From IMG/VR virus record IMGVR_UViG_3300037246_001803, positions 1 to 48,257 of that record: a stretch of 48,257 nucleotides of DNA; one strand, written 5' to 3'. Origin of the DNA: a virus. The position numbers and the translations under genes were made by a program. Below, piece after piece: positions 1 to 48,257 of this stretch (the stretch's first letter is position 1; every line of letters begins with the position of its first letter). The notes under the pieces are model-generated. The model was not told the origin of the DNA, made no database searches, and worked only from the letters and a program-made list of their open reading frames with translations.

Positions 1-578
1 CTGCATTCGTAGAAGAGAGCGGCAGTAAGACCGTGCTGACGCTCGCGGAGTGGAACAAGATCGACGACATGCGGTGCAGCATCCGCAACCACCCGATCGC
101 CGTGAAGATCCTTGATGATGCGGGGTACGCAGAGTATTCGTTCGTCTGGATCGACGAAGACTCGGGTGCGCTGTGCAAGGGGCGTGTCGATTGGTTCGGT
201 CGACTGTGGGGCAACGCGGTGGTCTGCGATTTGAAGTCCACGCGCGACGCATCCCCGCAGGGTTGGCCGAAACAGATCGCCAACTTTCAGTACCACGTCC
301 AAGCCTCCTTCTATATGGATGGCTTGAATACGGTTGCACCCTCGAAGGATCGCACCTGGCTGTGGCTGGCGGTCGAGAATGCAACGCCGTTCTGTTCGGC
401 GGTGTATCAGGCCGAGCCAGGCATGCTCGACGAGGGACGTCGGCGCTACAAGAACTACCTGGCAAAATGGGTGCAGTGCCAAGAGACCGGAGTGTGGGCG
501 GGCTATCCCGCGGGACTGAACATGGTGGACATCCCGCATTGGGCATACACGAGCGATGAAGAAGAGGGGATCTTCTAA
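1..578 (+). CDS. RecE-like exonuclease, 3' part (duplicate end)
   Basis: This is the C-terminal two thirds of the gene seen whole at 46393-47241; its first 270 bases are cut off by the window edge. The nuclease core is present: the GRVD acidic motif, the DLK motif and QxxxY follow each other as in DUF3799/RecE-type PD-(D/E)xK exonucleases. It overlaps the next gene by one base (TAATG). It is not a separate pseudogene: it joins the right end of the window if the molecule is closed into a circle. Confidence 0.85.
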   Translation, partial: AFVEESGSKTVLTLAEWNKIDDMRCSIRNHPIAVKILDDAGYAEYSFVWIDEDSGALCKGRVDWFGRLWGNAVVCDLKSTRDASPQGWPKQIANFQYHVQASFYMDGLNTVAPSKDRTWLWLAVENATPFCSAVYQAEPGMLDEGRRRYKNYLAKWVQCQETGVWAGYPAGLNMVDIPHWAYTSDEEEGIF

Positions 579-1405
579 TGAGTGAAGACAAAGCAGTGAC
601 AGCAGTACCCATGACCGGGCGCGGGGTTGCGCTGACCACGATGGAGGATGCGTGGCGCTTTGCCACCGCCATCGTCCAGTCGGGTGCAGCACCGTCCATG
701 GGCAAGGGCAGAAAGATGGACGTGGCCACGGTGTTCGCCGTGGTGCAGTCCGGGATGGAGTTTGGACTGACACCCATGTCAGCCCTGACCAACATGAAGT
801 GCGTGAACGGGCGCACCGGGCCGATGGGGAAGGTGGCGAAAGCCAAGGTGATCGCCAGCGGCAAGGTGAAGGGCGCCATCGTGGACGAGATGGTGGGTCA
901 GTACGGCGAAATGGACTACTGCTGCGCGATCACATCGACCCGCAAGGACACCGGGGTCGAGATCACGACATCCTTCTCGATCGGGGACGCCAAGCGGGCG
1001 GGATTGTGGGGGAAATCAGGCCCGTGGACCGAGTACCCCAAAGGCCAGCTCTACTACCGGGCGCTGGGGTTTCACCTCGATCGCGTCTACCCGGATGTGC
1101 TGATGGGGTTCGACATCGCCGAGAGCCTGATGGACTACCCCGACGAGGTGGAAGTCCACGGCGTGGTGCTCCAGCCGCTCGACAAGCCCGGCAACGACCC
1201 CCTGCTGGACCTGCTGCCCGAAGGGAAGACCGCGGACGATCTGGAAGAGGTGTTCGACCCAGGCGAGCCAGAAGTGGCTGTCATGAGCCACGAGAAGCGA
1301 GACGACATCCTAAAACGGCTGGAGGCCGCGGACGTGACGGTGGACGAGGCAGACGCGGCCAATGCCAAGCCAGAGGGCGCCGAAGAACAACCGGACATGC
1401 TGTGA
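578..1405 (+). CDS. RecT-like single-strand annealing protein (duplicate copy)
   Basis: Identical to 47241-48068, where it is described. The 275-aa product would anneal complementary single strands produced by the exonuclease just upstream; the pair is translationally coupled through TAATG. Its core carries the GLTPMSAL and DAKRAGLWGKSGPW motifs seen in RecT-superfamily phage proteins. The C-terminal 80 residues are acidic and look unstructured. Confidence 0.8.
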   Translation: MSEDKAVTAVPMTGRGVALTTMEDAWRFATAIVQSGAAPSMGKGRKMDVATVFAVVQSGMEFGLTPMSALTNMKCVNGRTGPMGKVAKAKVIASGKVKGAIVDEMVGQYGEMDYCCAITSTRKDTGVEITTSFSIGDAKRAGLWGKSGPWTEYPKGQLYYRALGFHLDRVYPDVLMGFDIAESLMDYPDEVEVHGVVLQPLDKPGNDPLLDLLPEGKTADDLEEVFDPGEPEVAVMSHEKRDDILKRLEAADVTVDEADAANAKPEGAEEQPDML

Positions 1406-1469
1406 GCCATTGTACGAAGGGCCGGGATACCATAGACTCAGAAGCGACGGAAGTACCCAAGTGTGAGGA

Positions 1470-1503
1470 CGCCCCGGAATCTACCCCCATGGATTCTGGG
1501 GCG
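1470..1503 (+). terminator. GC-rich stem-loop after the annealase gene
   Basis: Arms 1470-1481 and 1492-1503 pair over 12 bp with one G-U wobble around a 10-base loop. The sequence after the stem (TTGTCGTTTG) is only moderately T-rich, so it may be a weak or factor-dependent terminator, or an RNA element that attenuates the gene at 1584. The ATG of the small frame at 1489 sits in the loop. The same structure occurs at 48133-48166. Confidence 0.5.
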
Positions 1504-1584
1504 TTGTCGTTTGTGATCATGGACGACGAAATCTGGAAGAACGGTCACCGCGTGCGTCCCTGGGAAGAGACGGAGGACTGGTGA
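1489..1584 (+). CDS. Possible 31-aa leader-type small protein
   Basis: An open frame from ATG 1489 (or ATG 1519, 21 aa) ends in TGATG overlapping the start of the next gene. Composition is Trp- and Glu-rich (VRPWEETEDW at the end). There is no good ribosome-binding site, but the five differences from the right-hand copy fit this frame: two silent, one Ile/Val, one Glu/Leu. This suggests, without proving it, that the frame is translated, perhaps to couple translation to the downstream gene. Confidence 0.4.
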   Translation: MDSGALSFVIMDDEIWKNGHRVRPWEETEDW

Positions 1585-1919
1585 TGAACCGCCTCGAAGA
1601 GATGCGGCGGCGGGCCCAGTATTACCACTACGACCACCCCGAGGTGTGGGAACTGTTCGTGCGGTTCGCCTTCCAGAAGATCGACCTCGGGTACGGGCAC
1701 TACGGAGCCAAGGCGATCATGGAGCGCGTGCGATGGGAAACCGATCGTGGTGCGAAAGATCCAGCGTTGAAGGTGAATGATCACTATACGGCCTTCTACG
1801 CACGTCGGTTCCACCGGCTCTACCCAAGATACGATGGGTTCTTCCGCAACCGGGTCCAGAAAAGCGTGGACCGGCCCGCCACTGGGCTACCGGAACCGAA
1901 TCGCTACAGCGTGGGTTAG
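1584..1919 (+). CDS. Conserved phage hypothetical protein
   Basis: 111 aa, start ATG 1584 behind GGAGG at 8-base spacing; GTG 1581 is the alternative. The chain is rich in aromatic and charged residues, with motifs of the kind YGAKAIMERVRWET and NDHYTAFYARRF. I recall similar small proteins of unknown function in many temperate-phage recombination clusters, often near exonuclease or annealase genes. No catalytic signature is visible. It is the last gene of the rightward unit that crosses the contig junction. Confidence 0.7.
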   Translation: MNRLEEMRRRAQYYHYDHPEVWELFVRFAFQKIDLGYGHYGAKAIMERVRWETDRGAKDPALKVNDHYTAFYARRFHRLYPRYDGFFRNRVQKSVDRPATGLPEPNRYSVG

Positions 1920-35490: not shown

Positions 35491-35700
35491 GCATGCGCGC
35501 GCGCGGTAGCGGAATCGCGTGCACGCGCTACCCACGCGCGGGCGGGCCCAGGCGCGCACTCGCACGCGGACACGCACGCACGCACACACCCGAGCGCATG
35601 CCCGCGGACACATGCGCGCCCGATCGCGAGCACACGCACACCCGCACACGCACATGCGGGGGCGCGCACCCACGCACCCGGGCACGAGCCCGAATGCGTG
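35491..35700. other. Alternating purine-pyrimidine (Z-DNA-prone) tract
   Basis: About 210 bases made almost wholly of CG, CA and TG steps: GCATGCGCGCGCGCGG at the left, then long CACACGCACA-type runs. Such sequence readily adopts left-handed DNA under negative supercoiling. Open frames across it are Cys/Arg/His/Ala low-complexity artefacts. It may be an origin or promoter element, or simply expanded simple sequence. Confidence 0.7.
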
Positions 35701-36178: not shown

Positions 36179-36190
36179 GACGCCCCGCGC

Positions 36191-36281
36191 CACGTCATCG
36201 GATGCAGAACACGCCCCCCACGTCATCGGATGCAGAACACACCATCACATCACCCGCCCTGCGTCGTCGGATACAGAGCCT
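36191..36281. repeat. Iteron-like direct repeats
   Basis: CACGTCATCGGATGCAGAAC plus AC occurs exactly at 36191-36212 and 36219-36240 (28-base period), with a degenerate third copy at 36260-36281 (15 of 22). Such repeats in a long gene-free, divergent region suit a replication-origin iteron set or a multi-copy operator. The rest of 36282-36458 holds the inverted repeat below and no gene. Confidence 0.6.
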
Positions 36282-36346
36282 GCCATCCCCCGCTATGGGG
36301 TCAGGTCTCGGATGATGACCCCATACATCACCGCATCGCCCGCTTC

Positions 36347-38678: not shown

Positions 38679-39524
38679 ATGCTGAAGCACCCCGAAACAG
38701 CAAGCACCAAGCGGTGGAACCTGTACGAGCAACTCCTGGTCATGGCAGCCGAGGAGGAGTCACTGCGGACCATGTACGTGTCGGGGCCCCCGGGCATCGG
38801 CAAGACCTGGCTGGCGTACCACATGGGCGTCAGCAGCAACCAGAAGCTGTGCGCCATCACCCTCACCGACGAGACCCCGGCAGCCGAGCTGCGGGGCCAC
38901 TACCTGATCGCTGAGGGTGGGCACACGTACTTCCACTACGGCCCGCTGTCGGTGGCGATGAAGGAGGGCTCGCGGCTCGTCATCAACGAGATCACCCGTG
39001 GCAATGCGGACTGCATGGCCATCCTGTACCCGTTTCTGGAGGACCCGTCGACCGCACGGCTGACGTTGCCCAACGGCGAGACGCTGCTGCCCACCAAAGG
39101 GTTCCACGTCATCGCCACGGACAACTACGAGCCCGACAAGCTGCCCGAGGCACTTCAGGACCGCTTCCAGGTGTTCATCGAGCTGAGCGATCCACACCCC
39201 GCCGCACTGGCACTGCTGCCCCCCGAGTTCTGGCTGGCTGCGGTGATCGAGCGGCACGAGTACGAGGACCTGTCGGGCATCAGCGCACGGCAGTGGAACA
39301 ACCTGTGCCTGATGGACGCCAAGTTCGACCTCAAGGTGTCCTGTGCACTGGTCTGGGGCCCCAAATCCGGGCGCACCGTGTACGACAACCTGCTGGGCAT
39401 GTGGGCCAAGAGGACCGGCTGGACCGCCACGGAACCCCACACCTGCCGCCAGGCAGCACGGGAGCAGGCGATCGAGCAGTTCGGCATCAAGGAGCTGGCT
39501 GCGGAGGTGACGGATGCTGGGTAA
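38679..39524 (+). CDS. MoxR/CobS-like AAA+ ATPase
   Basis: 281 aa behind GAGAGGGA. Walker A GPPGIGKT at 36-43; Walker B LVINEIT at 100-106, where Asn103 replaces the usual Asp while the catalytic Glu104 stays; sensor 1 HVIATDN at 143-149; Arg finger in LPEALQDRF at 155-163. These are the marks of MoxR-clade AAA+ proteins, which usually remodel targets together with a VWA partner. The next gene, overlapping by 11 bases, is exactly such a partner. Likely a hexameric chaperone/activase; target unknown. Confidence 0.85.
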   Translation: MLKHPETASTKRWNLYEQLLVMAAEEESLRTMYVSGPPGIGKTWLAYHMGVSSNQKLCAITLTDETPAAELRGHYLIAEGGHTYFHYGPLSVAMKEGSRLVINEITRGNADCMAILYPFLEDPSTARLTLPNGETLLPTKGFHVIATDNYEPDKLPEALQDRFQVFIELSDPHPAALALLPPEFWLAAVIERHEYEDLSGISARQWNNLCLMDAKFDLKVSCALVWGPKSGRTVYDNLLGMWAKRTGWTATEPHTCRQAAREQAIEQFGIKELAAEVTDAG

Positions 39525-41016
39525 CGAAAAACACTACCGCCCACTGCCCAACTGGTACGACCCGAGGGGGGTGAAGGCCCCCCGCTACCGGGTGGTTGAC
39601 TCGAACGCCATGCGGAATATCGCCGGGGCCACCGACAAGGAGGGTGGCGTGATGTTCGTGCCGCTCGACGAGGAGGGGCGCATGATCGTGAACCACGAAC
39701 TGGGCCATGTGGCCTGGAGCCCGGTGGCACCACCCGATGGCAAGACGCTGGTCAACGCCTGCTACATCGCGCTGGAAGAGGCCCGCGTCAACATGGGGCT
39801 CGATGTGCTGGGCCACCCGCTGCGGTTCAAGGAGGCGGGGAAACACGTCAAGGCGTTCGTCAAGGTGCTGGGCAACCCCAGCGGCCGCTATCCACGAGAC
39901 GTGGTGTTCTCGATGCTGAGCCTGTTTGGCACGGACATCGAGGCCCACACATGGAAGCGGTTCCGCGCCGACCTGGAACGAATGGGTCCGAAGAGCGCGC
40001 AGCGCGACAGGCTGGTACGTGTCGAGCGCATCATCATGGATGCCAGGGACCGCATGAACAAGGCGTTCATGCGGTCCAAGGGCGTGGTGCCACCGCAGCC
40101 GGTGATGATGGCACTGGCACGCTGGCTGGCCAAGCGGCTGCGGAGTGCCGAGAAGGCGCACAAGAAGGCGGGCGGACGCACGCCGTTCACCCAGAGTGGC
40201 AGCAGTCCCCGGACGATGTGCGGCTATGGCAAGCCGCCGCCCTCCGAGGGCAAGCCCAGTGGGCAACCCATGGGGCGGGTCTGGGGGCCAGCACGCGACG
40301 AGCGGAAGAATGCGTGGTTCGACTCCGAGACGTACCGCGACCCCGACAACATCAGGCTCAACGGGTTCCCCATGCCGTACAAGGGGGACGTCATGCCGGG
40401 CCGCATGACCGTGGAGGAGCCTGCGCGGCCGCACGACTGCGAGACCATCAAGGACCACAAGAAGCGGACCTGGAGTGCCGCGGAAGAGGGCACGCAGATC
40501 GGCGATGTGTACCGGATCATCACCGACCAGCGGGTGTTCAAGCGGAAGCTGAAGCGCAAGCGTGGTGGTGGCACGGTGCTGTTCGACATCAGCGGCTCGA
40601 TGGACGAACTGGCCGACTGCATCAACGAGGTGATTGCCGCCAACCCGGCAGCCACCACCTGCGCCACGTACTGCGGCGACGGCTCACGCGGCACGCTGAA
40701 GGTGATCGTGCGTGACGGCTCGAAGGTCGAGCCCGTCGAGATGGAGCCCGAACATGGTGGCAACGTGGTCGACCTGCCCGCAGTGGACTGGCTGAGCCGC
40801 ATGCCCGAGCCACGGGTGTGGGTGACCGACCAGGGTTGCACAGGCCAGAACGACGAGGGCAGCCCCGAACTGCTGCGGATGTGCCTCAAGCTGTGCGACG
40901 CCCACAACATCAGCATCGTGGAGTCACCGTGGAAGGTGGCCGAGTTCCTGAAGGACTGGTCCGAAGGCATGACCAACACCCGACCGAAGTCACGCTGGCT
41001 GGAAGAGGACGAATAA
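39514..41016 (+). CDS. CobT-like protein: HExxH zincin domain plus VWA domain
   Basis: 500 aa. HELGH at 61-65 and ALEEARVN at 86-93 recreate the HExxH...(E/D)xxR pattern of metallopeptidase-like domains in CobT/DUF2201-type proteins. Residues 150-350 are a basic, partly disordered linker. The VWA domain starts at VLFDISGSMD (355-364) with the metal-site residues Asp358, Ser360 and Ser362, and a later Asp439. With the ATPase it forms the MoxR-VWA pair known from RavA-ViaA, NorQ-NorD and CobS-CobT-like systems; CobS/CobT-like pairs occur in some large myophages without settled function. Confidence 0.85.
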   Translation: MLGNEKHYRPLPNWYDPRGVKAPRYRVVDSNAMRNIAGATDKEGGVMFVPLDEEGRMIVNHELGHVAWSPVAPPDGKTLVNACYIALEEARVNMGLDVLGHPLRFKEAGKHVKAFVKVLGNPSGRYPRDVVFSMLSLFGTDIEAHTWKRFRADLERMGPKSAQRDRLVRVERIIMDARDRMNKAFMRSKGVVPPQPVMMALARWLAKRLRSAEKAHKKAGGRTPFTQSGSSPRTMCGYGKPPPSEGKPSGQPMGRVWGPARDERKNAWFDSETYRDPDNIRLNGFPMPYKGDVMPGRMTVEEPARPHDCETIKDHKKRTWSAAEEGTQIGDVYRIITDQRVFKRKLKRKRGGGTVLFDISGSMDELADCINEVIAANPAATTCATYCGDGSRGTLKVIVRDGSKVEPVEMEPEHGGNVVDLPAVDWLSRMPEPRVWVTDQGCTGQNDEGSPELLRMCLKLCDAHNISIVESPWKVAEFLKDWSEGMTNTRPKSRWLEEDE

Positions 41017-41112: not shown

Positions 41113-41364
41113 GTGAGACGAGTATTCGAGTTTGCGTTTTGGTTGGCAGGCACCGCGATGAGTATCGCTGTGCTGCTCATCATGGTGCGGTGTATATCCA
41201 ACACCGCAGTAGGAGATTGCGATGGAAGTGAGTTTGACCGACGAGCAGCGAGCGGAGACGTTTGTCCAGAACGCCTACGACACGACCAAGGTGGTGCTGA
41301 CGGAGTACCCGCTGGAATCGAGCCGGTTCCCCGTTCGGCTCTGGAAATACACCGCGTTCGTTAA
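41113..41364 (+). CDS. Uncertain small membrane protein
   Basis: GTG 41113 with AGGAG 6-8 bases upstream opens a frame of 83 aa whose residues 5-25 form a transmembrane helix (EFAFWLAGTAMSIAVLLIM). It overlaps the well-supported next gene by 143 bases, so only the first 37 codons are free; a competing frame from ATG 41016 is Arg-rich and looks artificial. The 205-base gap 41017-41221 holds nothing better. Confidence 0.3.
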   Translation: MRRVFEFAFWLAGTAMSIAVLLIMVRCISNTAVGDCDGSEFDRRAASGDVCPERLRHDQGGADGVPAGIEPVPRSALEIHRVR

Positions 41365-41557
41365 CGACGACAAGGTGGGCGGCTGGGTGAGCAACACGAT
41401 CGAGACGGCCATCTACGGCGGGTCACACACCCCGTCCGAGGTGCGTGAGATGCACGCCGGGCGGCTGCTGCACGTCTACGGGGTAGCCGAGCTGGCCCAG
41501 ATGATGAAGGCAACAGAGCACGACCCCGACGACGTGCCCGACGAGATCGACGTATGA
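41222..41557 (+). CDS. Hypothetical alpha/beta protein
   Basis: 111 aa behind AGGAG. Mixed fold (TTKVVLTEYPLESSRFPVRLWKY; GRLLHVYGVAELAQMM), acidic tail. No motif known to me. It is coupled by ATGA to the zinc-knuckle protein, itself coupled to the integrase, so these three are co-translated. Confidence 0.65.
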   Translation: MEVSLTDEQRAETFVQNAYDTTKVVLTEYPLESSRFPVRLWKYTAFVNDDKVGGWVSNTIETAIYGGSHTPSEVREMHAGRLLHVYGVAELAQMMKATEHDPDDVPDEIDV

Positions 41558-41721
41558 CAATCGTGACGTGGAGATGTGTCATCTGCAATGACCTGAACAG
41601 CGGCTACGGCAACAACCCGGCCCCGGTCAGGGACACTGGGCGGTGCTGCAACGACTGCAACGCCGTCGCCGTGATACCGGCACGCCTGGAGCAGATATTC
41701 CGAAGGGAGCACGAAGAGTGA
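41554..41721 (+). CDS. 55-aa zinc-knuckle protein
   Basis: From ATG 41554 (ATGA overlap) to a TGA overlapping the integrase GTG. Two Cys pairs, CVIC at 8-11 and CCNDC at 31-35, are placed to bind one zinc; the C-terminus is a short helix (ARLEQIFRREHEE). Too short for usual gene finding, but start, stop and Cys layout are convincing. It may be an excision or regulation helper of the integrase, judged only from coupling. Confidence 0.65.
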   Translation: MTIVTWRCVICNDLNSGYGNNPAPVRDTGRCCNDCNAVAVIPARLEQIFRREHEE

Positions 41722-42299
41722 AATATCCCCCCCACCCGTTGACGCGAGATCAGGTCGTTAGGCTGATCGAGTTCGCGTCACGATCCAGGTGCGGCCTGCG
41801 TGAAGCGGCACATCTCACCGTGCTGTATCGCACTGGGATGCGCTGCGCCGAGAGCTGCAACCTGGATATGGCGGACCTCCGCTGCCACGGAGAGTCCGCC
41901 ATGGTGGTGCGGGTTACGCACCCCAAGGGCTGGCAACGGGGGGCGATGCCAAGAGAGATTGGGCTGGACCCCAAGGCTGCACGGACACTGCGTATGTGGC
42001 TCGTGCAGCGGGGTTCGGAGGCGGGCCCGGTGTTCATTACCGCAGGGGGACTCCGGGTCCGTCCATCGCACATCCGCAGGCTGATCCCACGGCTGGCACA
42101 CGAGGCGGGCATCCACCGCCGCTGCCACCCGCACGCCCTGCGACACACGTTTGCACGCGAGCTGTACGACGAAGGCGTTGGCCTCGTCGAGATCATGCTC
42201 GCGCTGGGTCACACGTCGCTGGCGACGACCCAGAAATATCTTCGGAGCATCGGAGCAACGGAAGTGGTCAATGTGACCGCTGGCCGTGGTGGGTGGTGA
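41718..42299 (+). CDS. Tyrosine recombinase (integrase), catalytic domain only
   Basis: 193 aa, GTG 41718 with GGGAG 8 bases upstream. All catalytic residues are visible: Arg42 (TGMR), Lys70 (HPKGW), His139-x-x-Arg142 (HALRH), His165 (LGHTS) and Tyr174 (TTQKY). The usual N-terminal arm- and core-binding domains are missing, giving a short XerC-like or minimal phage recombinase. It could integrate the genome or resolve dimers. No attachment site could be identified nearby. Confidence 0.85.
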   Translation: MKYPPHPLTRDQVVRLIEFASRSRCGLREAAHLTVLYRTGMRCAESCNLDMADLRCHGESAMVVRVTHPKGWQRGAMPREIGLDPKAARTLRMWLVQRGSEAGPVFITAGGLRVRPSHIRRLIPRLAHEAGIHRRCHPHALRHTFARELYDEGVGLVEIMLALGHTSLATTQKYLRSIGATEVVNVTAGRGGW

Positions 42300-43597: not shown

Positions 43598-43964
43598 GCG
43601 GATACAGAGCAGATACGACGGGTTCCGAGACGAATTGGGCGACGCCGTCCGATTCAAAATGGATTCAGAGCGCCTGAAGATACGCGAGTTGGCAGCCGAG
43701 TTGGGCATCAGTGCGTCATCGCTGTCCCAGATCCGTATGGGGTCAGCGGGAACAGAGCGCGCGGTGCCGAAATTGGAACACCACTTCCGCGTGCTGCACT
43801 GGCTGGATGCGCCACTCGGTCAGTTCGAGTCCAATGTCGATGGAACCAGAGCAGAATCCAGCATCAACGACGTGTGGGACGTGATCATGCGGCTGAAACT
43901 GCCCGCACGGAGTCGCAGCCAGATGGCCGAGGTGATCACGGTGCTGTGGGAGAATCAGGTTTGA
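43581..43964 (+). CDS. HTH DNA-binding protein
   Basis: 127 aa from ATG 43581 with AGAGGAG upstream; earlier in-frame ATG is within the preceding gene. ELAAELGISASSLSQIRMG at 38-56 is a helix-turn-helix. The C-terminal part (VWDVIMRLKLPARSRSQMAEVITVLWE) is helical and may dimerise. Last gene of the rightward operon; ends 10 bases inside the convergent resolvase. Confidence 0.65.
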   Translation: MSTRDKRIQSRYDGFRDELGDAVRFKMDSERLKIRELAAELGISASSLSQIRMGSAGTERAVPKLEHHFRVLHWLDAPLGQFESNVDGTRAESSINDVWDVIMRLKLPARSRSQMAEVITVLWENQV

Positions 43965-44455
43965 GAGACTACACCGACATTCCCGTCATCATCGGACTGG
44001 CTTTGACCATGCTTCTCGGTGGGTACGCTCTCGGTCTCAGTCACGGTGATTCGGACGTACTCTTTCCCGCGGGGGACTCCGAACCAACGCACGATCGGTT
44101 CACCAATGCAGGATGGTTTGTCACTAGCAATGACCCCGCACCCTACACTCACGACGAGCTTTCCCGTCTTGCGGAGAGCAACGCTCTGCGGCTGGAGGCC
44201 ATCCAGGAGTGGCTTAATCGACGCCATTAGGTTGTCGTGGTCAGGCGGCTGCCCTGACCGGTAGCAGTCGAACAGGACCGTGGCCCTCTCGAACGGCTGA
44301 GGGGGCCACTCCGGTCCCATCTCCTCGCGCACGGCCCACACCACCGCCTCGCGCCACATCCTGCGTTCCTTCGCCTGCTTGCTCCAGTGTCCCTTGCTGT
44401 ACGCATTCGGAAGACTGGGCGCACCCTTTACATCGAAATTCAGCTCGAAATTCAA
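43955..44455 (-). CDS. RusA-like Holliday-junction resolvase
   Basis: 166 aa. The core GQPPDHDNLMASIKPLLDGL gives Asp72 and Asp74 and a third acidic site at Asp85 or Asp112 (GVIASDKP). This matches RusA in order and spacing, but the Lys of the DNxxK motif is Ala78. The C-terminal 30 residues are an unrelated polar tail. It would cut recombination branches made by the exonuclease/annealase pair before packaging. Convergent with the HTH gene and antisense to a TTG frame at 43961-44230. Confidence 0.8.
   Translation of the reverse strand: MNFELNFDVKGAPSLPNAYSKGHWSKQAKERRMWREAVVWAVREEMGPEWPPQPFERATVLFDCYRSGQPPDHDNLMASIKPLLDGLQPQSVALRKTGKLVVSVGCGVIASDKPSCIGEPIVRWFGVPRGKEYVRITVTETESVPTEKHGQSQSDDDGNVGVVSQT
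43961..44230 (+). CDS. Doubtful antisense membrane protein frame
   Basis: 89 aa from TTG 43961 (TTGA overlap, GGGAGAA upstream). Residues 6-25 form a clean transmembrane helix and the rest looks protein-like (WFVTSNDPAPYTHDELSRLAESNA). It lies almost wholly antisense to the resolvase gene, which is the better supported reading. Kept as a candidate because its start context is good. Confidence 0.3.
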   Translation: MRDYTDIPVIIGLALTMLLGGYALGLSHGDSDVLFPAGDSEPTHDRFTNAGWFVTSNDPAPYTHDELSRLAESNALRLEAIQEWLNRRH

Positions 44456-46392: not shown

Positions 46393-47241
46393 ATGAAGGC
46401 ACCGGAACCGGGGGTCTACCCTGGAATACCAGCCGAGGACTATCACCGCTGGGATGCGGCGAACTACTCGACGTTGAAGCAGTTCCAACGATCCGCAGCA
46501 CACGCTCGCGACATCCTGATCAATCCACCCGAGCAGAGCGAGGCGATGGTCCAAGGCCAAGCCCTGCACGACGCAGTGCTGGAACCAGAGCTGTTTGCCA
46601 AGGAATATGCGGTGGCACCCGACGTGGGTGACCGTCGCTTCAAGGCAGCGAAGGCAGAGTGGGCTGCATTCGTAGAAGAGAGCGGCAGTAAGACCGTGCT
46701 GACGCTCGCGGAGTGGAACAAGATCGACGACATGCGGTGCAGCATCCGCAACCACCCGATCGCCGTGAAGATCCTTGATGATGCGGGGTACGCAGAGTAT
46801 TCGTTCGTCTGGATCGACGAAGACTCGGGTGCGCTGTGCAAGGGGCGTGTCGATTGGTTCGGTCGACTGTGGGGCAACGCGGTGGTCTGCGATTTGAAGT
46901 CCACGCGCGACGCATCCCCGCAGGGTTGGCCGAAACAGATCGCCAACTTTCAGTACCACGTCCAAGCCTCCTTCTATATGGATGGCTTGAATACGGTTGC
47001 ACCCTCGAAGGATCGCACCTGGCTGTGGCTGGCGGTCGAGAATGCAACGCCGTTCTGTTCGGCGGTGTATCAGGCCGAGCCAGGCATGCTCGACGAGGGA
47101 CGTCGGCGCTACAAGAACTACCTGGCAAAATGGGTGCAGTGCCAAGAGACCGGAGTGTGGGCGGGCTATCCCGCGGGACTGAACATGGTGGACATCCCGC
47201 ATTGGGCATACACGAGCGATGAAGAAGAGGGGATCTTCTAA
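46393..47241 (+). CDS. RecE-like exonuclease (DUF3799, PD-(D/E)xK)
   Basis: 282 aa behind AAAGGAG. Start MKAPEPGVYPGIPAEDYH is typical of this family. Active-site signs: GQALHDAVL (His59), GRVDW (Asp154), CDLKST (Asp167, Lys169) and QASFY (Gln191, Tyr195). It would degrade one strand of linear duplex DNA, making substrate for the RecT-like protein encoded next (TAATG overlap). It is the first gene right of the putative switch, so probably under repressor control. Confidence 0.85.
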   Translation: MKAPEPGVYPGIPAEDYHRWDAANYSTLKQFQRSAAHARDILINPPEQSEAMVQGQALHDAVLEPELFAKEYAVAPDVGDRRFKAAKAEWAAFVEESGSKTVLTLAEWNKIDDMRCSIRNHPIAVKILDDAGYAEYSFVWIDEDSGALCKGRVDWFGRLWGNAVVCDLKSTRDASPQGWPKQIANFQYHVQASFYMDGLNTVAPSKDRTWLWLAVENATPFCSAVYQAEPGMLDEGRRRYKNYLAKWVQCQETGVWAGYPAGLNMVDIPHWAYTSDEEEGIF

Positions 47242-48068
47242 TGAGTGAAGACAAAGCAGTGACAGCAGTACCCATGACCGGGCGCGGGGTTGCGCTGACC
47301 ACGATGGAGGATGCGTGGCGCTTTGCCACCGCCATCGTCCAGTCGGGTGCAGCACCGTCCATGGGCAAGGGCAGAAAGATGGACGTGGCCACGGTGTTCG
47401 CCGTGGTGCAGTCCGGGATGGAGTTTGGACTGACACCCATGTCAGCCCTGACCAACATGAAGTGCGTGAACGGGCGCACCGGGCCGATGGGGAAGGTGGC
47501 GAAAGCCAAGGTGATCGCCAGCGGCAAGGTGAAGGGCGCCATCGTGGACGAGATGGTGGGTCAGTACGGCGAAATGGACTACTGCTGCGCGATCACATCG
47601 ACCCGCAAGGACACCGGGGTCGAGATCACGACATCCTTCTCGATCGGGGACGCCAAGCGGGCGGGATTGTGGGGGAAATCAGGCCCGTGGACCGAGTACC
47701 CCAAAGGCCAGCTCTACTACCGGGCGCTGGGGTTTCACCTCGATCGCGTCTACCCGGATGTGCTGATGGGGTTCGACATCGCCGAGAGCCTGATGGACTA
47801 CCCCGACGAGGTGGAAGTCCACGGCGTGGTGCTCCAGCCGCTCGACAAGCCCGGCAACGACCCCCTGCTGGACCTGCTGCCCGAAGGGAAGACCGCGGAC
47901 GATCTGGAAGAGGTGTTCGACCCAGGCGAGCCAGAAGTGGCTGTCATGAGCCACGAGAAGCGAGACGACATCCTAAAACGGCTGGAGGCCGCGGACGTGA
48001 CGGTGGACGAGGCAGACGCGGCCAATGCCAAGCCAGAGGGCGCCGAAGAACAACCGGACATGCTGTGA
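47241..48068 (+). CDS. RecT-like single-strand annealing protein
   Basis: 275 aa. The family pattern is seen in VVQSGMEFGLTPMSALTNMK, VNGRTGPMGKVAKAKV, SFSIGDAKRAGLWGKSGPW, YPKGQLYYRALGFHLDRVYPD split here by position 60-190. Residues 195-275 are acidic, with a LLDLLPEGKTADDLEEVF segment that might bind a host partner. Anneals strands and promotes recombination with the exonuclease. The same gene is at 578-1405. Confidence 0.8.
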   Translation: MSEDKAVTAVPMTGRGVALTTMEDAWRFATAIVQSGAAPSMGKGRKMDVATVFAVVQSGMEFGLTPMSALTNMKCVNGRTGPMGKVAKAKVIASGKVKGAIVDEMVGQYGEMDYCCAITSTRKDTGVEITTSFSIGDAKRAGLWGKSGPWTEYPKGQLYYRALGFHLDRVYPDVLMGFDIAESLMDYPDEVEVHGVVLQPLDKPGNDPLLDLLPEGKTADDLEEVFDPGEPEVAVMSHEKRDDILKRLEAADVTVDEADAANAKPEGAEEQPDML

Positions 48069-48132
48069 GCCATTGTACGAAGGGCCGGGATACCATAGAC
48101 TCAGAAGCGACGGAAGTACCCAAGTGTGAGGA

Positions 48133-48166
48133 CGCCCCGGAATCTACCCCCATGGATTCTGGGGCG
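48133..48166 (+). terminator. GC-rich stem-loop (duplicate copy)
   Basis: Same 12-bp stem and 10-base loop as 1470-1503, unchanged in sequence. See that entry. Confidence 0.5.
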
Positions 48167-48247
48167 TTGTCGTTTGTGATCATGGACGACGAGGTCTGGA
48201 AGAACGGGCACCGCGTGCGTCCCTGGTTAGAGACGGAGGACTGGTGA
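48152..48247 (+). CDS. Possible 31-aa small protein (variant copy)
   Basis: Same frame as 1489-1584 but with five base changes; the end reads VRPWLETEDW instead of VRPWEETEDW, and EIW becomes EVW. The next gene's start (ATG 48247) overlaps its TGA, and that gene is cut by the window end after 11 bases. Confidence 0.4.
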   Translation: MDSGALSFVIMDDEVWKNGHRVRPWLETEDW

Positions 48248-48257
48248 TGAACCGCCT

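Follow-up and report, generated by a model that had tools for sequence, protein, structure and literature searches.

A MoxR-type ATPase gene overlapping the gene of a zincin-like/VWA partner in a small temperate phage genome and in uncultured viruses

We identified a pair of overlapping genes in a viral DNA of 48,257 nucleotides (IMG/VR record IMGVR_UViG_3300037246_001803, the whole of which is called the window here) that very probably encode a MoxR-type ATPase, designated A, and a partner with a zincin-like N-terminal region and a VWA domain, designated Z. This type of pair is already known from jumbo phages, where it was reported in 2021, and the compact two-gene version described here is new. 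The reading that we favor, with close to an even chance of being correct, is that A and Z constitute a MoxR-VWA remodeller acting in phage recombination or replication. Judged by its sequence, Z represents a common viral family that has not been catalogued.

The gene pair and its genome

The gene for A (281 aa) lies at positions 38679–39524 of the plus strand and the gene for Z (500 aa) at 39514–41016 of the same strand, and their 11-nt overlap (39514–39524) is exactly that given in the initial annotation. The overlap is a conserved arrangement, as 71 of 77 homologous pairs among the matches listed overlap by 1–53 nt; the other six have a gap of 216–446 nt, usually with a small gene inside. 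A small ORF lies 3' of Z on the plus strand (41222–41557, 111 aa); the small gene in this place in the other viruses (family 6) is not detectably homologous to it. The pair is adjoined by a tyrosine integrase gene (41643–42299, plus strand; Phage_integrase, 4.1e-29). Further along are genes for a RusA-like Holliday-junction resolvase (43955–44455, minus strand; phrog_34, 5.1e-8), a RecE-type exonuclease VIII (46393–47241, plus strand; phrog_412, 5.2e-78; DUF3799, 1.5e-28), and a RecT-like annealing protein (47241–48068, plus strand; phrog_561, 4.6e-21). The pair shares this region with the genes for integrase, RusA, RecE and RecT and is on the strand opposite the structural genes.

The ends of the window (1–1594 and 46664–48257) are a direct repeat with five mismatches, all of them after base 1529. 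Because the ends of the record repeat, the virus genome is about 46.7 kb in length and probably circular or terminally redundant. Through these repeated ends the RecT gene appears twice in the record, its second copy being at 578–1405. The portal protein is closest to those of LUZ24-type and other podoviruses and, together with the tyrosine integrase, bears out the earlier description of the genome as small, temperate and podovirus-like. Upstream of the early genes, a stretch that looks non-coding contains three copies of a short direct repeat (CCACGTCATCGGATGCAGAACACGCC) and a 12-base tandem repeat rich in G+C (36190–36284 and 35553–35579 of the window).

A is a MoxR AAA+ ATPase of the NorQ/CbbQ type with complete motifs. 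Every ATPase element named in the initial annotation could be located, with Walker A (GPPGIGKT) at 36–43, Walker B (VINE) including N103 and E104, the sensor at Asn149, and the arginine finger at R162. The Pfam AAA_5 model matches with an E-value of 1.2e-19. Walker A, N103, E104, N149 and R162 are all invariant in the family alignment. Asn103 had been singled out as unusual for its Walker B position. However, an Asn-Glu Walker B is present in all 75 A homologues among the matches listed, and a conjugative element encodes a distant ATPase that has it as well; Asn103 is therefore a feature of the lineage. We also considered Asn103 as the mark of a dead ATPase, and rejected this because asparagine is the family norm.

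The best sequence relatives of A in the PDB are Midasin, NorQ and CbbQ. Foldseek matches an AlphaFold2 model of A, built from nine sequences (mean pLDDT 73.5, with a weak C-terminal part), to NorQ structures (E = 5.4e-15), among them complexes of NorQ with the VWA domain of NorD; ranks 1–21 of the search are all NorQ or CbbQ. The prediction agrees with the AAA+ fold that had been proposed, and the profile search places A in the MoxR class with the CbbQ/NorQ/GvpN type.

The motifs of Z fall in two regions. A zincin-like block (39694–39786, plus strand) carries HELGH at residues 61–65 and LEEARVN with E88 and R91. The VWA domain (residues ~354–484; 40573–40965, plus strand) carries DISGS at 358–362, which supplies the MIDAS residues D358, S360 and S362, together with N417 in loop 2 and D439 in loop 3. 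The HELGH, ALEEARVN and DISGS elements first noted in the partner are therefore all present. Z has the DxSxS and the loop-2 and loop-3 ligand positions of a VWA/MIDAS domain, and it has the gluzincin layout of HExxH followed by a Glu ligand on the next helix. In an alignment of 40 sequences, H61, E62, H65, E88, R91, D358, S360, S362 and D439 are invariant, and the loop-2 Thr position is taken by an invariant N417; as these sequences were chosen on HELGH, it is the invariance of the MIDAS and of E88 and R91 that is informative. A hidden Markov model of 65 viral relatives scores Z at 162.8 bits across both the N-terminal block and the VWA region. Because the match extends over both domains and the motifs are invariant, the motifs are not a product of chance. 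A zinc site is probably formed in Z of the window.

Z is not recognized by NCBIfam or PADLOC, nor by Pfam at E-values up to 1. Its sole clear library match is in the VWA region to phrog_33218 (3.9e-9), a small PHROG without known function. In a model of moderate to low confidence (mean pLDDT 62.7), the consecutive helices 56–66 and 78–98 carry HELGH and E88/R91, respectively, and the VWA region has alternating strands and helices. The PDB matches of this model are VWA domains at weak E-values (0.1 or worse), and no zincin is among the hits listed. Given a poor model and weak PDB matches, the assignment of a zincin fold rests on the motifs and the placement of the helices. With A being NorQ-like by both sequence and fold, and Z assigned by its motifs and the HMM, the proposed pairing of a MoxR AAA+ protein with a zincin-VWA partner holds.

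Distribution of the family and loss of the protease motif

Relatives of Z are readily missed. There was no match by tblastn when Z and two relatives were compared with 50,697 isolate phage records, nothing useful when Z was searched against phages and plasmids even at an E-value of 10, and no relative in exact-peptide scans of IMG/VR. One alignment (A1) contained no stretch conserved enough for scanning, and a scan based on another (A2) gave 257 candidates, none of which was confirmed. A degenerate DNA pattern for HELGH[VA]xW[ST]P identified at least 80 loci in IMG/VR, encoding proteins of ~475–520 aa with the same layout as Z. Since pattern scans find a family that tblastn and exact-peptide scans miss, a null result in such searches does not indicate absence. 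An A homologue is directly upstream of Z in 76 of 80 loci among the matches listed, and in the remaining four Z is at the edge of the available stretch. The window pair belongs to this family, as Z matches the profile in both regions and A is directly upstream. Z is 23–28% identical to its viral relatives, and A 33–35%.

By BLAST, A and Z are both closest to A-Z pairs carried on a small number of bacterial MAG contigs, assigned to Planctomycetota, a Deltaproteobacterium and an unclassified bacterium, with 37–45% identity for A and about 30–35% for Z. Scanning a collection of cellular genomes revealed eight loci of the family. Z occurs in two of 294 Planctomycetota genomes, both among the genomes already found, and the family is rare in cells. 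Contigs with a related large terminase (L007 and others) are without the pair, and these contigs are partial.

A sample selected on HELGH cannot be used to judge how well HELGH is conserved, and we therefore scanned IMG/VR a second time with the VWA motif GGTxLxDxSGSM alone, blind to the N-terminus. This gave at least 69 loci that include the N-terminus, 46 seen before and 23 new. HExxH is lost in 15 of 69 such N-terminally complete loci among the matches listed, being replaced by LQLGH, TELAH or HQLGR (Glu-helix motif altered too), or by no recognizable motif. Mapped onto a tree of the VWA region, the motif must have changed state at least three times along well-supported branches, and parsimony puts the number of changes at five. 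Conversely, all 66 loci picked by the zincin motif among the matches listed have an intact MIDAS. In all motif-less loci checked, A keeps Walker A, NE and DRF, and where sequence suffices the loci with a dead zincin keep the order of A, Z, small gene, exonuclease and single-strand annealing protein (SSAP). The conserved core thus appears to be a MoxR-VWA machine with an optional metal-protease site. Because HExxH has been lost repeatedly while A, the MIDAS and the gene order stay, proteolysis does not appear to be the core function of the pair. Z of the window is itself complete in HELGH, E88 and R91, and the losses in its relatives do not imply that it is inactive.

These observations bear on whether A and Z form a two-component ATP-dependent metalloprotease, an FtsH-like split machine in which A would unfold a substrate, possibly a host or defense protein, and the HELGH/E88 zinc site of Z would cut it. 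A review of jumbo phages proposes peptidolytic processing for a MoxR and metallopeptidase-vWA pair (PMC7824862), and Z of the window, like most of its relatives among the matches listed, has the full set of HELGH, E88 and R91. However, the zinc ligands and catalytic Glu are exactly what close relatives with the same gene order have lost, and the structure search did not confirm a zincin fold. We regard this explanation as unlikely. Of the suggestion in the initial annotation that Z could be a peptidase, the complete motif stands, and the losses in relatives weigh against the rest. Its view that an intact HExxH is unusual in a VWA protein is not upheld, as such proteins are common in phages and integrative conjugative elements (ICEs), with examples in jumbo phages, N4 gp25, the cyanophage 'peptidase' and conjugative elements.

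Genomic context and candidate clients

In the main virus clade the gene order is A, Z, a small gene, an Mre11/SbcD-like exonuclease (phrog_284, 4.7e-41), and one or two Rad52-like annealing proteins (phrog_3290, 2.3e-10), as found in 37 of 39 loci with enough sequence among the matches listed. The large terminase in this clade is on the strand opposite the pair. We rejected treating the 37 exonuclease/SSAP loci as independent cases since they are a single clade, and they count as one evolutionary observation. The Rad52-like protein (family 2; L084, L155, L156 and others) is encoded by two tandem copies of ~185 aa in many loci and by one longer gene elsewhere. The early operon of the clade of 40-kb viruses also encodes a SET-domain protein (PF00856, 4.8e-10; L089 10386–10700; family 21, 18 loci), which to our knowledge is unusual for a phage.

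Recombination or replication genes accompany such pairs elsewhere. In cyanophage S-RIM50 (L219) and Pelagibacter phage HTVC008M (L226) the order is gp47 and gp46 (recombination genes of the T4 type), 'peptidase', CobS, and sliding clamp/clamp loader. An ICE-like island has the order MoxR, x, ssb, bet, (exo position), DUF3150 position, and zincin/VWA. In a Pirellulales MAG contig (L158, 1509–3826) the next gene after A and Z, overlapping by 4 bases, encodes a RuvB-like protein that has RuvB_N (4.9e-27), lid and RuvB_C domains. Such a recurring neighborhood suggests a client from recombination or replication.

Several observations count against such a role. In the window, RecE and RecT are 5.4 kb from the pair with opposite-strand genes between, which means that the pair and RecE/RecT are not in one operon. 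In the nearest viral relatives of the window on the tree (L063, L102, L195; support 96/70, long branches), A-Z instead adjoins a terminase-like gene, called from its length and a Walker-A-like sequence. Two bacterial A-Z contigs have metabolic genes on both sides, and the partners in cyanophages, ICEs and N4 appear only distantly related to Z. Recombination genes are usually found in early regions, and their closeness to the pair can therefore be incidental.

The terminase-like neighbor would fit a chaperone of virion assembly or maturation. This role was proposed for the jumbo phage pairs (PMC7824862) and also, according to the Hardycor1 paper with reference to Scheele 2011, for p618/p892 of Acidianus two-tailed virus (PMC7911831). 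However, the pair is encoded on the early strand in both the window and the main virus clade, with the structural genes on the other strand. Elsewhere it adjoins exonuclease/SSAP or gp46-gp47/clamp genes, and we consider a virion chaperone improbable. An anti-defense or host-takeover remodeller, whose client would be a host protein unrelated to phage recombination, is about as improbable. The pair does resemble an accessory gene of the early region beside an integrase, and bacterial MoxR-vWA pairs also form conflict systems (PMC7159879). Against this, PADLOC returned no protein-wide match for the pair and nothing beyond a weak IetA hit restricted to the P-loop (E = 0.015), and fixed presence and gene order over a large virus clade fit a core role better than a variable accessory one.

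The remodeller reading accounts for the pairing itself, as A precedes Z in all 76 loci with upstream sequence among the matches listed. The initial annotation had predicted a remodeller, and this is in keeping with NorQ, including the NorQ-NorD VWA complex, as the best fold match and with the conservation of both the pairing and the MIDAS. In the established picture of NorQ-NorD, RavA-ViaA and Midasin, the MoxR ATPase is a hexameric ring, and the VWA/MIDAS partner bound to it presents the client. By analogy with NorQ-NorD and other such pairs, A would form a hexameric ring and dock on Z via the VWA/MIDAS. Recognition and binding of the client would fall to the N-terminal region of Z, and ATP hydrolysis by A would remodel or dislodge the client. 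More tentatively, the client might be a phage recombination or replication protein or a protein-DNA complex, with the exonuclease, the annealing protein, the replisome or a host protein in the way as candidates, and the action might occur early in infection. The zinc site would then be an optional addition, and cleavage would not be the conserved function. ComM, a branch-migration helicase, illustrates that AAA+ proteins resembling RavA and magnesium chelatase in structure are able to act on DNA in recombination (PMC11612176), which makes a DNA-linked role plausible and is no test of it. Overall, we place a recombination or replication role for A and Z at slightly below an even chance.

Related systems and the cobalamin label

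Comparing A-Z with known systems reveals a shared layout. The closest class for A by fold and sequence, NorQ-NorD and CbbQ-CbbO, has the same MoxR-VWA pairing; Z differs in being viral with a zincin-like N-terminal region, and A in its NE Walker B. In jumbo phages, as here, the MoxR gene adjoins that of a vWA protein with an N-terminal metallopeptidase domain (PMC7824862). In contrast, and by description, A-Z is in the early region of a genome of ~46.7 kb, and its relatives often have a dead zincin. The 'peptidase' (phrog_459) and CobS (phrog_249) of cyanophages and Pelagiphages share with A-Z the HExxH...E(D/E)xR and MIDAS-VWA motifs, the adjacent MoxR gene and the recombination/replication neighborhood. 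However, this 'peptidase' is about 700–785 aa with an acidic linker, precedes the ATPase gene, and has only local similarity to the Z profile. The CobS/CobT-like genes of ICEs similarly include a MoxR protein with an Asn-Glu Walker B, an HExxH-VWA protein, and recombination genes (lying between the two in the ICE); unlike Z, the ICE VWA protein matches the Pfam CobT and VWA models, is distant in sequence, and is accompanied by an extra DUF3150-type gene.

N4-like podoviruses also have adjacent genes for an ATPase (gp24) and a metallopeptidase-VWA protein (gp25), which are kept as core genes (PMC4193335). However, gp25 matches DUF2201_N and DUF2201, and Z matches neither model (PF13203/PF09967) in Pfam and shows no relationship to gp25 by profile comparison. 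Compared by profile with the ICE, cyanophage and N4 proteins, Z gave matches that were weak or absent, and hence we claim a similar layout and not membership. N4 gp25 (L031 1165–2307) carries a DUF2201_N putative metallopeptidase domain (3.1e-87) with HELWH and a DUF2201 VWA-like domain (1.4e-46) with DTSGS; it is labelled an HNH endonuclease, including in phrog_1314, and looks misannotated. Gene 101 of Gordonia phage Phendrix (L003 5633–7903) lies near a MoxR-type gene and is annotated as an AAA-ATPase; it has no confident Pfam or PHROG match and reads as a zincin (HETGH...EELR) joined to a VWA domain. Beyond the large myophages named in the initial annotation, MoxR-VWA pairs are found in N4-like podoviruses, in 45-kb haloviruses such as Hardycor1 with its AAA-vWA pair (PMC7911831), and in many viral contigs of ~40 kb.

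The cobS gene and its 'peptidase' neighbor have long been reported among the core or auxiliary metabolic genes of marine cyanophages, with no agreed role (PMC3037559, PMC2984593, PMC8651126). A 2021 report on cobST pairs of tailed viruses, in which cobT frequently carries a peptidase annotation, proposed that they serve cobalamin synthesis (PMC8651126). By extension, A and Z could be a viral CobST that, together with CobN of the host, increases cobalamin synthesis, and A does match the CobS PHROG (phrog_249, 1.2e-15). However, NorQ and Midasin are closer relatives of A than CobS is, and Z has no match to the CobT or CobT_C models (PF06213, PF11775) at E-values up to 1, on which ground we rejected CobT membership. 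No CobN or other cobalamin pathway gene was recognized among the window proteins scanned, which leave out some small ORFs. We consider a viral CobST very improbable. In the initial annotation the partner was called CobT-like and a profile search against CobT and DUF2201 was suggested; the layout survives from this name, and neither family matched in Pfam. The same results agree with its statements that no cobalamin gene is nearby and that a phage-specific target is to be preferred over cobalamin.

It is possible, though doubtful, that the cyanophage, N4-like, ICE and uncultured-family pairs are one class of MoxR-VWA remodellers of recombination or replication protein-DNA complexes. These would have been misfiled as cobalamin genes, peptidases and HNH nucleases, and their zincin domain would be active in certain lineages but in others a dead module that binds the client. 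The Z family is frequent in uncultured viruses and was missed by the family libraries searched and by isolate collections. Because the pair is widespread in uncultured viruses and tends to adjoin recombination genes, the label of 'vitamin B12 gene' for such viral pairs is doubtful. A compact pair in a 46.7-kb phage, with natural losses of the protease motif and a recombination neighborhood, makes the question of B12 or another role answerable.
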